A DNA stretch of 64,000 nt from Amylibacter marinus (GTDB taxonomy: Bacteria; Pseudomonadota; Alphaproteobacteria; Rhodobacterales; Rhodobacteraceae). The DNA lies in contig NZ_BSNN01000008.1 in the NCBI RefSeq assembly GCF_030160015.1, forward strand, positions 124,001-188,000, given 5' to 3'. Of this stretch, positions 51,607-55,062 are shown one piece after another (positions within the stretch are counted from its first letter, which is position 1; each line of letters starts with the position of its first letter). Below the pieces are notes generated by a model. It saw only the letters and a program-made list of their open reading frames with translations, ran no database searches and was not told the DNA's origin. A program made the position numbers and the translations under genes.

Positions 51607-53178
51607 CTATTCGGTCACGCTTGTCCAGCTTAGGTCAAACTTGTTTAGGTATTTCTTTAACCGGTCTGCATCGTTTTTGCTCTTCTTTTGCACACGTGAT
51701 GCGCCAAACAGACGCCGCCCAGCCGCGCTTAGGCTTTCGCTTTCGCGACAGGCACGAATTACATGGGCCAGCTGCACGCGATCGAACTCATCGACATCGC
51801 TGATAGATCCGCCCATGACATCCGCCAATAGCTTGGTGTCCGCGTTCTCGGCAGTATTTTCCCACTGTTGGCTTAGCGTTTCGATCTCGCGCTCGACCAT
51901 TGCCAATGTAATGCGCCCGCGCGGCGCCAATGTGCACATGCGTTGCATTGATGCGCTTAGATCGCGAAAATTACCTGCCCAATGGGTGGCGGGATTGGTT
52001 GCAAATTGTGAATACCGCTTGGCCGCATCCGCATTAAAGCTGAACCGCATACCCAATAATTTTTCGACACGGGCCAGTTCAAAATCCAAATTTGGCTGAA
52101 TATCTTCGGGGCGCTGGCGTAATGAAGGCAGATGAAATGTCCACAGATTAAGCCGCGCAAACAGATCGGGGCGAAATTTCCCTTGCGCCACCAGCTGGGC
52201 CAAATCCCTGCTGGCCCCAGCGATCAAATGAAAGCGGCTGGTCACTTCGTAATCAGATCCCAGCGGAAAGTATTTGCCACTTTCGACCGCGTGTAAAATA
52301 ATCGCCTGCTCATCCAAGCCCAGCTCGTCGATTTCATCCAAGAACAGGATGCCGCCATTGGCCTCTTGCAAAAGCCCGCCGCGCTCTGATTGCGTGCCCA
52401 TCGCGCCGCGCCGATGGCCAAACAACGTCGACATCGCCCGTTCGCCCTTTAGAGTGGAGCAGTTCACATGCACCAAACGCCCTTTTACACGGCGGCGCTG
52501 TAGTTTTAGCTCGTAGAGGCGCGATGCCAGCTCTGATTTTCCCGTGCCCGTAGGGCCCAGCAACAACAAAGGCGCATCCGAGGTGGTGGCCACCAGTTCC
52601 ATGCGTTCGATCAAGGCATTGAAATCACTGCTTCGCGTTTCAATCCCGCCCTTTAGCAGGGTGTTATATTCTTGGTGGACCAGATCAAAGCGTTTTTGCA
52701 GTGCATTATATTTGGAAAGATCAAGATCAACGACCTGAAAAGATCCCGCAGTGTCATCACCCTCGCGTGGTGGGCTGGTTTGAATCAATTTGGCAGGGAT
52801 ATGGCGCGACTCGGTTAGCAGGAACCAACAAATTTGCGCCACATGCGTACCCGTGGTCAGATGCACATGATAATTCTCGCGTTCGTCATCAAACCCATAG
52901 TCGCGTGCAAAATCAAACAAGGCCCCATACATCTCTTCGAAATCCCATGGGTCTTGGAAATTAATTTCCTGTAGCAAAACCTCGGTTTCTGGGCTGATGG
53001 CTGTGATGCCCTGTTTTACGTCATGGGCCAGACGACGATACCGCATATCATGGATCAGCTCGAAACGCGCCACAGGGAAATCTGCATGCTGACACAGCTG
53101 TATCGATGGGCGCCATTTGCGTTTGCGGCCCATATCCAATTGCGTGCCAAGGAATCCAATCACAACGTTTTTCTTCAT
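51607..53178 (-). CDS. rtcR: RNA-repair operon regulator RtcR (CARF - AAA+ activator)
   Basis: A 523-residue activator: CARF-type sensor domain (residues about 1-180, FLGTQLDMGRKRKWRPS, YHVHLTTGTHVAQICWFLL), AAA+ domain with Walker A GPTGTGKS at 208-215 and Walker B LFLDEIDEL, and a C-terminal helix-turn-helix (SLSAAGRRLFGASRVQKKSK). In Salmonella RtcR CARF binds 5' tRNA halves ending in cyclic phosphate and switches on rtcBA with sigma-54. Here the GAFTGA loop that contacts sigma-54 reads GAMGTQ (258-263). It is divergent from the stub, the tRNA-like RNA and rtcB. Confidence 0.93.
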   Translation of the reverse strand: MKKNVVIGFLGTQLDMGRKRKWRPSIQLCQHADFPVARFELIHDMRYRRLAHDVKQGITAISPETEVLLQEINFQDPWDFEEMYGALFDFARDYGFDDERENYHVHLTTGTHVAQICWFLLTESRHIPAKLIQTSPPREGDDTAGSFQVVDLDLSKYNALQKRFDLVHQEYNTLLKGGIETRSSDFNALIERMELVATTSDAPLLLLGPTGTGKSELASRLYELKLQRRRVKGRLVHVNCSTLKGERAMSTLFGHRRGAMGTQSERGGLLQEANGGILFLDEIDELGLDEQAIILHAVESGKYFPLGSDYEVTSRFHLIAGASRDLAQLVAQGKFRPDLFARLNLWTFHLPSLRQRPEDIQPNLDFELARVEKLLGMRFSFNADAAKRYSQFATNPATHWAGNFRDLSASMQRMCTLAPRGRITLAMVEREIETLSQQWENTAENADTKLLADVMGGSISDVDEFDRVQLAHVIRACRESESLSAAGRRLFGASRVQKKSKNDADRLKKYLNKFDLSWTSVTE

Positions 53179-53350
53179 ATCTTATCTTAAATTATAAACT
53201 CGTATAAATTTCAATAGCTATATTCTTAGAGAAACCTCTCATTCCTAATTTTACTCAACAAAACCAACCAGTTACGCATTTTGTTATTTTCCTTCCTGCC
53301 TGACCTCTTTTCCACCAAACAAGTAGAAAGAAACAGAAAGGACGAAAGCA

Positions 53351-53443
53351 ATGGCAAATACATCTCTATTCGCATCATACAAAGGGCCACAGCGCCTGCC
53401 CATAACAGCCCAAAAAGCGTCTTGCGAAACCCTGTCCCTCTGA
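53351..53443 (+). pseudogene. Truncated start of a Ro60-like TROVE-domain gene (rsr remnant), putative
   Basis: A 30-codon frame starting at ATG 53351 with a strong AAAGGA site 9 bases upstream reads MANTSLFASYKGPQRLP and stops at 53443. The opening resembles bacterial TROVE (Ro60/Rsr) proteins, which often begin with M-A-N-K-S-L-F. The rest of a roughly 500-residue Ro protein is absent. In many bacteria the order is rsr, Y RNA, rtcB, and here a tRNA-like RNA and rtcB do follow. It could instead be a short leader peptide. Confidence 0.4.
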
Positions 53444-53485
53444 CCTGAAATTAATGAAATAAGGAAACATTTCTTGGCGAATGCC

Positions 53486-53579
53486 GATGGAACTACATCT
53501 GATATGTCGTTGTCGCGGGTTCGATTCCCGCTCTTGTAAATGCAGGATAGCTCAGTTGGTAGAGCGCGCCCGTTTCATC
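53486..53579 (+). ncRNA. Circularly permuted tRNA-like RNA (YrlA/Y RNA-like) upstream of rtcB
   Basis: Elements in order: terminal stem GATGGAAC (53486-53493) pairing with GTTTCATC (53572-53579); a small hairpin ACAT-CTGAT-ATGT; T arm GCGGG-TTCGATT-CCCGC (53515-53531); acceptor 3' strand TCTTGTA (53532-53538); a 2-base AA loop; acceptor 5' strand TGCAGGA (53541-53547), pairing in all seven positions; D arm GCTC-AGTTGGTA-GAGC (53550-53565). So the tRNA elbow and acceptor stem are complete but the 3' half precedes the 5' half, the acceptor is closed, there is no CCA and no anticodon loop. This is the topology of YrlA-type Y RNAs. Confidence 0.8.
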
Positions 53580-53580
53580 C

Positions 53581-53598
53581 CCTTGTCGTCAAGGTTTT
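53581..53598 (+). terminator. Small hairpin with T run after the tRNA-like RNA
   Basis: CCTTG-TCGT-CAAGG followed by TTTT, between the tRNA-like element and the rtcB ribosome-binding site. It may terminate or mark the 3' end of the RNA while allowing read-through to rtcB. Confidence 0.45.
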
Positions 53599-53613
53599 AC
53601 AAAGGATAAAATT

Positions 53614-55029
53614 ATGACTGATACACAAACAGAAATCACATCCGAGCTTTTGAAATCTTGGGGGCATACCCCAAGCCCTGCTTTTGGCAAGGCCTTGGCC
53701 GAGGGTCAGGCGGCTTTGACTGCGGGCTACGACCTAGAACAAATCCGCGCAAAACTGCAGCGCCTTGTCCCGCCCCCTGCGCTGCCTACACTGCCGTTAC
53801 ACGGGGTTGGCGAAATCCCTTTTCACGTGAACATTGATGCTCAGGATGCGGACGAGGTGAAGAACGTAGAGGATGTGAAAAACACCATGACTATGGTGAT
53901 GCGCACGCCAACGGTTGTCTCTGGCGCAATCATGCCCGATGCCTGCCCCGCAGGCCCTATCGGCACCATCCCAGTGGGCGGCGTTGTTGCCGCGCGAAAC
54001 GCGCTTCACCCGGGCATGCATTCTGCGGATATTTGTTGCTCTGTTATGTTGTCCAACCTTGGCGATGCAGACCCAAAGGCCGTGCTAGATGCCGCGCAAT
54101 CCATAACTCATTTCGGCCCAGGTGGGCGCAAGCAGGGCCAGCGCTTCACCGTCAGCCAAAAGCTGATCGATGCCTTTGCGGCCAACCCTTTTCTAAACAG
54201 CCAGAAAATGCGCCGCATGATGGTTGAGCATATGGGCACCCAAGGCGACGGCAACCATTTCTTGTTCGTGGGTAAATCCCGCGCAACGGGCGATACCTGT
54301 ATGATCACCCATCACGGGTCGCGTGGGCCGGGGGCTGTTTTGTACAAGTACGGCATGGAGGTGGCGGAAAAATTCCGCAAGAAATTGTCACCCGAAACGC
54401 TGAAACAAAACGCATGGATTCCTGCGGATACACAAGAGGGGCGCGATTACTGGGATGCCCTGCAATTGATCCGCAAATGGACCAAGGTCAATCATAGCGG
54501 CCTGCACCAAGCAACGGCGGATGCCATCGGCGCAGGCGTAAAGGATCGTTTTTGGAACGAGCATAACTTCGTGTTTAAACGCGAGGATGTGTATTACCAT
54601 GGCAAGGGTGCCACCCCTGCTTGGAACGATTACGCATCCGATGCCACAGGGCTGACCTTGATCCCGCTGAATATGTCAGAACCGGTGTTGGTGGTGAGAG
54701 GCAAAGACCGCGATCACGGCCTAGGCTTCAGCCCGCACGGCGCCGGCCGCAATTATTCGCGCAGCGAGCACAAGAGGCGCAAGGTTGGCATAACGCCCGA
54801 GCAATTGCTGATGGCCGAAACCGCTGGCTTGGACATCCGGTTTCACGCGGGGCCAGTTGATGCCTCTGAATTGCCGTCCAGCTATAAATGCGCCGATACG
54901 GTGGTTGAGCAGATCAAGAAATACGATCTGGCCGAAATCACCGACTATATCGACCCATTTGGTTGCATCATGGCGGGGGATTGCCCCCCACCGTGGATGT
55001 CCAGAAAGGCCCGTAAAGGCCGCAGATAA
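53614..55029 (+). CDS. rtcB: RNA-splicing ligase RtcB
   Basis: A 471-residue RtcB of the bacterial repair type. It joins 2',3'-cyclic phosphate or 3'-phosphate RNA ends to 5'-OH ends with GTP and manganese. Key elements are HPGMHSADICCSVML (metal-binding Cys at 141/142), EHMGTQGDGNHFLFVG (metal ligands), ITHHGSRGPG, and FSPHGAGRNYSRSE with His375 as the guanylylation site. AAAGGATAAAATT precedes the ATG. It follows the tRNA-like RNA by 34 bases and is divergent from rtcR. No rtcA cyclase gene is in the window. Confidence 0.96.
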   Translation: MTDTQTEITSELLKSWGHTPSPAFGKALAEGQAALTAGYDLEQIRAKLQRLVPPPALPTLPLHGVGEIPFHVNIDAQDADEVKNVEDVKNTMTMVMRTPTVVSGAIMPDACPAGPIGTIPVGGVVAARNALHPGMHSADICCSVMLSNLGDADPKAVLDAAQSITHFGPGGRKQGQRFTVSQKLIDAFAANPFLNSQKMRRMMVEHMGTQGDGNHFLFVGKSRATGDTCMITHHGSRGPGAVLYKYGMEVAEKFRKKLSPETLKQNAWIPADTQEGRDYWDALQLIRKWTKVNHSGLHQATADAIGAGVKDRFWNEHNFVFKREDVYYHGKGATPAWNDYASDATGLTLIPLNMSEPVLVVRGKDRDHGLGFSPHGAGRNYSRSEHKRRKVGITPEQLLMAETAGLDIRFHAGPVDASELPSSYKCADTVVEQIKKYDLAEITDYIDPFGCIMAGDCPPPWMSRKARKGRR

Positions 55030-55032
55030 AAC

Positions 55033-55062
55033 ACCACCAGCGGGCCAACCGCTGGTGGTTTG
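55033..55062 (+). terminator. Terminator of rtcB
   Basis: An 11-base-pair stem ACCACCAGCGG / CCGCTGGTGGT with loop GCCAA, followed by TTTG, directly after the rtcB stop. Confidence 0.75.

Follow-up and report, generated by a model that had tools for sequence, protein, structure and literature searches.

In the window, the whole 64-kb stretch of DNA analysed here, the gene for the activator RtcR and the gene for the RNA ligase RtcB point away from each other across a gap of 435 bases, and a YrlA Y RNA lies in this gap on the rtcB strand (Table 1). Its end is separated from the rtcB start codon by 18 nt. The Pfam matches on either side agree with the placement between rtcR and rtcB that was given in an earlier note on this DNA.

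Table 1. Features of the rtcR-rtcB region in window positions, with the evidence for each.
Feature	Position	Strand	Evidence
rtcR, CARF-AAA+ activator	51607..53178	-	NCBIfam RNA_repair_RtcR 717.5 bits (cut-off 650); Pfam RtcR 8.2e-77
Divergent control region, rtcR to putative Ro60 relic	53179..53350	.	Leader alignment
Putative Ro60 (rsr) relic	53351..53443	+	Start profile, DNA match, position; stop after 30 codons
YrlA Y RNA, whole unit	53474..53595	+	RF02553 67.8 bits; held-out model 103.9 bits
End stem, 5' strand	53474..53480	+	7 bp with 53586-53592; covariation, held-out model
Inner stem, 5' strand (GATGGAAC)	53486..53493	+	Pairs with 53572-53579; covariation
T arm of tRNA-like half	53515..53531	+	Stem 5 bp, loop TTCGATT; covariation, held-out model
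Acceptor-like stem	53532..53547	+	3' strand first, two-base turn, then 5' strand; covariation, held-out model
D arm of tRNA-like half	53550..53565	+	Sequence pairing; covariation, held-out model
Inner stem, 3' strand (GTTTCATC)	53572..53579	+	Pairs with 53486-53493; covariation
End stem, 3' strand	53586..53592	+	Pairs with 53474-53480; covariation, held-out model
rtcB, RNA ligase	53614..55029	+	Pfam RtcB 2.3e-35
Terminator-like hairpin after rtcB (ACCACCAGCGG/CCGCTGGTGGT)	55033..55059	+	By eye

The Rfam model of YrlA (RF02553) covers the unit over all 114 model positions, with an E-value of 4.5e-15. The score lies 1.2 bits below the gathering cut-off of 69 bits, and the best copies of three Ro60-bearing genomes fall below it as well (G003, 66.3 bits; G059, 65.2 bits; G112, 63.5 bits). 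At E <= 0.001, the element is the sole match to RF02553 in the 2.72-Mb genome. The tRNA-like half, consisting of T arm, joined acceptor strands and D arm, is present in permuted order, and the two ends, which carry the conserved blocks GCGAATGC, GGAACTACA and CTTGTCG, form a basal stem.

The arms read by the earlier note are all found in the sequence. The T stem pairs at five of five positions (53515-53519 with 53527-53531) around the loop TTCGATT, the acceptor strands at seven of seven, including two G-U pairs (53532-53538 with 53541-53547, linked by just 53539-53540), the D stem at four of four (53550-53553 with 53562-53565, GG in the loop), and the outer ends at eight of eight with one G-U. 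Its description of a circularly permuted tRNA-like layout, 3' half first, is borne out by the sequence, by RF02553, by covariation and by a model that excluded the window copy, and the extended anticodon-side stem is both present and covarying. Its span, 53486..53579, lies inside the element and was drawn too short, leaving the 7-bp end stem outside. The YrlA-type identity that it proposed is upheld by both covariance models, and the comparison with Y RNA and tRNA models that it recommended leaves the Rfam tRNA model at only 16.6 bits, where 29 are required. Judged by sequence and models together, the element is firmly assigned as a genuine, well-conserved, full-length YrlA Y RNA. The kind is already known, as is a position next to rtcB, from Salmonella.

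In the rsr-yrlBA-rtcBA operon of Salmonella, YrlA (RF02553; structure 6CU1, cited in PMC8394870) likewise shows permuted T, acceptor and D arms and a basal stem built from both ends, adjoins rtcB and has rtcR divergent. In contrast to that operon, the window genome has no detected Ro60 or RtcA, a single YrlA and an RtcR without GAFTGA. RtcA, which belongs to the Salmonella/E. coli-type rtc operon, was searched for in the whole genome and not found. The window RtcB is also only distantly like the RtcBs of loci with other RtcB types: it shares about 64-72% identity with the long matches to rtcB at Rhodobacterales-type loci and 26-28% with the matches at L068, L069, L070 and L076.

The GAFTGA motif of such activators contacts sigma-54. 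At this position the window RtcR reads GAMGTQ, and a search with one Pfam domain, the sigma-54 DNA-binding domain, found nothing in the window genome; the same search was positive in 4 of 14 control genomes, including Caulobacter. The combination of GAFTGA and rpoN that marks sigma-54-dependent RtcR activation of the Salmonella/E. coli type was not found here. Among the listed RtcR proteins, exact GAFTGA occurs in nine (L069, L071-L078), with GAYTGA in L079, and is missing from L031-L068, L070, L080-L082 and L110-L136, RtcRs of the same order included; near forms are GAITGA (L067), GAFSGA (L048) and GAFAGA (L049), and L083, where the motif is unreadable, stands outside these counts. A scan of 53150-53640 for sigma-54 promoters produced no convincing match, the best site agreeing at 8 of 12 consensus positions. 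These motifs and searches suggest that RtcR of the window's group is probably independent of sigma-54. The locus appears to have moved away from both RtcA and sigma-54. As a separate observation, many of 34 aligned leaders show by eye a recurring inverted repeat, TACGAT...ATCGTA, some 10-50 bases before the start of rtcR; it is a candidate RtcR binding site.

Statistical support for the fold

Folding energy by itself is unremarkable for the element. For 53474-53595 the z-score is -1.6, and 16 of 200 shuffled sequences fold as well or better; for 53486-53579 the corresponding values are -1.7 and 13 of 200. Because this test is weak, covariance was used instead. Twenty-seven YrlA copies, from the window and 26 of the 29 other loci, were aligned by sequence, and a consensus structure was obtained by applying RNAalifold to this alignment. 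One partial copy (L019), two low-scoring and deviant copies (L029 and L030) and five matches lacking a locus were omitted, and the omission of deviant copies favours the structure.

Standard pairs occupy 98.4% of the 829 pair cells. Two-sided changes are seen in 15 of the 31 pairs (shuffled mean 10.1), including every one of the seven acceptor-like pairs and four of the seven in the end stem. The earlier note had named a lack of compensatory change among relatives as one result that would count against it; two-sided changes were found in 92 cells, compared with a column-shuffle mean of 26.5 and with 4-14 when the strands were slid out of register, figures that somewhat favour the structure since a structure model served to collect the copies from which the structure was then derived. 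By these alignments the YrlA fold covaries strongly. In the end stem, the window has U-A, U-A and G-U where the majority of the 27 copies have C-G, C-G and G-C.

A held-out model was also built from the 26 relatives' copies, with the window excluded. Applied to the 64-kb window, it gives the element 103.9 bits, with an E-value of about 3e-26 (E-values of such models are rough), and the runner-up, at 16.2 bits, overlaps a real tRNA-Thr. By covariance model the element is far beyond chance.

Ro60, Y-RNA arrays and tRNA genes in relatives

The window RtcR was used to fetch 79 loci, of which 53 (L031-L083) are relatives at 50-73% identity; 52 of these are proteobacterial, many of them from Rhodobacterales. 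In 32 of the 53, a frame of 516-524 aa on the rtcB strand starts 168-230 bases from rtcR (the contig of L038 ends within the rtcR-rtcB gap). These frames encode Ro60/Rsr. All five that were tested match Pfam vWA_Ro60 (6.6e-14 to 2.8e-16), three of the five exceed the TROVE cut-off, and four tested against NCBIfam Rsr give 1.7e-18 to 3.9e-23, far under the equivalog cut-off. A profile of 25 relatives' Ro60 proteins matches D. radiodurans Rsr (2NVO) at 3e-28 and the Ro60 entries 9NEN and 1YVP at about 1e-18 to 4e-19. The idea that Y RNAs in this order always occur without Ro60, suggested by TROVE at E 1e-6 (0 of 292 genomes), was ruled out by the relatives' profile and by TROVE at E 1e-3, which gives weak hits in 22 of 50 RtcR-bearing genomes; of 14 such hits that were fetched, 13 lie beside rtcR and one just before rtcB.

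Between Ro60 and rtcB, each of the 26 loci with both genes in reach holds 2-7 Y-RNA hits, after removal of hits sharing more than 30 bases with an ARAGORN tRNA (6 of 150). Across the 150 model hits in relatives, these six included, both end blocks are present as written in 84 and the 5' block in 100, by a pattern that excluded short-Y-RNA variants. Some array members are YrlA; of 12 lower-scoring hits printed, eight are RNAs of 66-77 nt that have the basal-stem ends and lack the tRNA-like half, as expected if the stem is the part that holds Ro60.

The same interval contains one to three tRNA genes on the same strand in 17 of the 26 loci (L031, L032, L034-L037, L039, L041, L044, L048, L049, L051, L053, L056, L061, L066, L081). 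They run in the rtcB direction, interleaved with the Y RNAs, and are for Pro (TGG/CGG) in 12 loci, Gln (TTG) in 11 and Asn (GTT) in 10, the loci being related and not independent. CCA is encoded in the DNA at the end of all 33. ARAGORN recognises them as tRNAs, a few with unusual arms, such as the Pro genes of L035 and L066. A tRNA-Asn call within the rsr frame of L041 (and of L127) was excluded. The operon tRNAs are possibly spare tRNAs co-induced with the repair genes. In G142, a genome of the same genus, a tRNA-Asn occupies the rtcR-rtcB gap where the window has YrlA (L110:2300-2375); neither Ro60 nor YrlA was found in this genome, and the gap copy is an extra one, since another tRNA-Asn lies elsewhere in it. 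A literature search, mainly of titles and abstract openings, returned no description of Y RNAs without Ro60 or of Y-RNA arrays with tRNA genes, and an earlier description is possible.

Other genes occur in this region. In L036, a KptA/Tpt1 RNA 2'-phosphotransferase gene (PF01885, 2.9e-45) lies directly before rtcB, 4145-4795 bases from the rtcR start, and is preceded by a 388-aa frame with no Pfam match above cut-off. A frame of 335-374 aa without an assigned kind is located upstream of rtcR at the Ro60 place in L064, L082 and L132; in L064 and L082 it stands between rtcR and rtcB.

The window shares with the relatives' arrays the gene order round the gap and the Y RNA. Unlike them, it does not hold Ro60, 2-7 Y RNAs or the tRNA genes. 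Ro60 was not detected in the window genome, which is 99.98% complete, either with Pfam TROVE or, at E 1, with the profile of the relatives' Ro60; this profile, applied to 292 genomes of the order, recovers 18, each at E 1e-290 or better. Unlike a Ro60-bound Y RNA in the functional sense, the Y RNA has no detected Ro60 partner in its own genome, and by these searches the loss of Ro60 from the genome is well supported.

A trace of the gene appears to persist. A frame at 53351, 173 bases from rtcR, opens with MANTSLFASYKG and runs for 30 codons to a stop; intact Ro60 proteins open with MANKSVFASxKG, and most intact rsr genes start at about this distance from rtcR. On a profile of 14 distinct Ro60 starts, whose own members score at least 44, the frame reaches 26.8, the best of 2000 gap shuffles 14.2 and the best site elsewhere in the window 13.8. 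The DNA at 53338-53385 (48 nt) matches L035 across its rsr leader and gene start with 83% identity (E 1.6e-8); a protein-level search of the gap for Ro60 was non-significant (E 0.85). Given its start-profile score, its DNA match and its position, the frame is taken to be a remnant of the start of a Ro60 gene, and the window locus looks like a deletion derivative of the relatives' arrays. Traces of rsr starts are found at other loci without Ro60, namely 33 residues in L033 (E 2.6e-8) and an exact 20-base piece of the gene start in L050 and L110, where rsr is lost.

Several side observations concern this site. In relatives, the opening codons of rsr make up an inverted repeat, GCAAACA-AATCCG-TGTTTGC, which is kept in L050 and L110 after the loss of rsr and is present in L060 as an 8-bp version with altered arms; in the window only 4 bp pair. 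By eye, CGGATG...CATCCG is seen at the same site in L058, L062, L063, L065 and L118, where the longest stem reported by the script is another one, further on. In L033/L126 and L135, the Ro60 start remnant runs in frame into rtcB, and the ligase may have a Ro60-derived N-terminal tail.

Distribution in the order and the genus

The order sample comprises 292 genomes, the window's included, searched for RtcR at E 1e-20, Ro60 at E 1e-10 and YrlA at E 1e-6. RtcR was found in 27 genomes, Ro60 in 18 and a raw YrlA hit in 19, or 18 after G074 (L019, overlapping tRNAs) was dropped. Seventeen of these 18 have Ro60, the sole exception being the window genome; G033 has Ro60 and no YrlA hit. Nine of the 27 RtcR genomes have no Ro60 (G000, G142, G080, G136, G198, G209, G230, G246 and G257). 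RF02553 finds no YrlA in the eight other than the window genome, and the held-out model, run around their rtcR genes (L110, L114, L134, L117, L118, L126, L132, L135), gives no believable match; a weak 19.9-bit hit in L033/L126, antisense within rtcB, was left uncounted.

In the genus, 33 genomes (22 of them at least 90% complete) contain no YrlA besides that of the window; the raw tally was 2 of 33, from which G358 (L151, a tRNA pair) was dropped. L075 is the only one of the 53 fetched loci that has Y RNAs and no complete Ro60 frame; it comes from a metagenome assembly in which Ro60 is split across two frames, possibly through a sequencing error. The false RF02553 hits of 34-43 bits produced by the closely spaced tRNA genes of L019 and L151 call for caution in the automatic annotation of YrlA. 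The unusual point of the window is a YrlA in a genome without detectable Ro60, apparently by a deletion whose scar is visible.

Explanations for the probably orphaned YrlA

The preferred reading, which is judged moderately probable, is that YrlA was orphaned by the deletion of its partner, is the last survivor of a Ro60/Y-RNA array and has been kept for its tRNA-shaped half. As the relic and the relatives suggest, the deletion would have taken the Ro60 gene, bar its first codons, together with the other Y RNAs. RtcR would sense cut tRNAs and switch on a transcript with YrlA and rtcB, on which YrlA is probably carried along with the ligase gene and from which it would be cut out, while RtcB would reseal the cut tRNAs. 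With no Ro60, the tRNA-shaped half may engage PNPase or tRNA-handling enzymes, or may spare real tRNAs from nuclease. Continued function is plausible and moderately likely, and any particular role is one guess among several. That the tRNA-like half of an RNA outliving Ro60 still works as a functional tRNA mimic, co-induced with RtcB by a sigma-54-independent RtcR, is put forward only tentatively and is rather doubtful.

Background on YrlA bears on both halves of the RNA. Rsr is held by the basal stem; PNPase binds to the tRNA-like half, which is a target of modification by DusA and TruB (PMC8394870). The window RNA has both halves needed for a particle like the Deinococcus Rsr-Y RNA-PNPase (RYPER) particle described in the same paper; unlike in Deinococcus, the Ro60 component was not detected in the window genome. 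The earlier note, whose interpretation is partly supported overall, had considered the RNA as a possible decoy, sensor ligand or ligase substrate. It was written unaware that Ro60 is missing from the gap and was not detected in the genome, which gives a different view of what the RNA can do. It was equally unaware that the window RtcR has no motif for sigma-54 contact and that its genome gave no match to the sigma-54 DNA-binding domain. Against a decoy role, the YrlA tRNA-like domain is reportedly itself no substrate of the anticodon nuclease, competitive inhibition being offered as a possibility (PMC7790460).

Selection on the RNA is favoured by the comparison of YrlA with the Ro60 relic. At the 62 positions conserved in at least 90% of the other 26 copies, the window YrlA differs at one (G to A, column 16), and this change is offset by the opposite base. 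Over its first 36 bases, the relic has changed at 5 of 25 conserved positions, where intact genes have changed at 0-2 (Fisher's exact p 0.007, a small comparison of unlike sequences in one genome). The compensated pair may predate the loss of Ro60, since it is also present in relative L029. Other points tell against the orphan reading. It concerns a single genome, with no second Ro60-less YrlA among the 292 of the order; the other eight RtcR genomes lacking Ro60 show no YrlA; and the stem that would hold Ro60 is just as intact as the tRNA-like half, a state compatible with recent loss and with selection alike.

A rival reading is a neutral leftover, in which Ro60 was deleted recently and the YrlA, still undecayed, does nothing. 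The intact Ro60-holding stem is expected shortly after the loss, and the relic is still recognisable. Eight of the nine Ro60-less RtcR genomes show no YrlA, so the Y RNA is not generally retained once Ro60 is lost. However, the relic has already lost 5 of its 25 conserved bases, compared with one compensated change in 62 for the RNA, and such an inert leftover is on balance unlikely, while remaining a serious candidate.

A quite improbable alternative is that the tRNA-like fold acts in cis as a leader of rtcB, serving as a processing site or a 5' shield that sets the stability of the rtcB mRNA, with no free RNA. The short distance to the rtcB start codon would suit such a leader, and in 6 of 26 loci (L047, L052, L053, L056, L059 and L081) a Y-RNA hit ends 11-29 nt before the extrapolated rtcB start, that of L053 being the only one classed as YrlA. 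Nevertheless, in the other 20 loci every Y RNA ends more than 30 nt from rtcB, up to seven Y RNAs occur per locus, most of them far from rtcB, and rtcR and rtcB stand with no Y RNA between them in L033, L050, L058, L060, L062, L063, L065 and L110.

Debris of two tandem tRNA genes, in which the 3' half of one and the 5' half of its neighbour would be misread as a Y RNA, has a negligible probability: such pairs do trigger RF02553 (L151, a tRNA-Asp pair, 34.5 bits; L019, overlapping tRNA-Leu/tRNA-Ser, 42.8 bits), but ARAGORN finds no tRNA at the element, its acceptor strands are joined by two bases, both Y-RNA stems are present and covary, and the held-out score of 103.9 bits compares with 46.0 and 34.0 for these two tRNA pairs, so this reading is refuted on score and stems. 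A permuted two-piece tmRNA, the alphaproteobacterial kind, is just as remote: it would share the order of 3' half before 5' half, and the T arm matches the tmRNA model at 18.9 bits (cut-off 47), but the match covers just 18 of 374 model positions, ARAGORN finds no tmRNA in the window and the conserved ends are those of a Y RNA, on which grounds it was rejected.

If the RNA has outlived Ro60 and still works as a tRNA mimic, it would be the minimal survivor of a larger tRNA-damage operon of Rhodobacterales, comprising Ro60, a Y-RNA array, spare tRNA genes and the ligase. In a natural genome that has YrlA and RtcB, and in which the searches detected no Ro60, the two halves of the RNA are set apart and the question of their roles becomes testable. 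The operons of the relatives, with their Y-RNA arrays and extra tRNA genes, suggest that tRNA replacement or shielding may belong to the same response.
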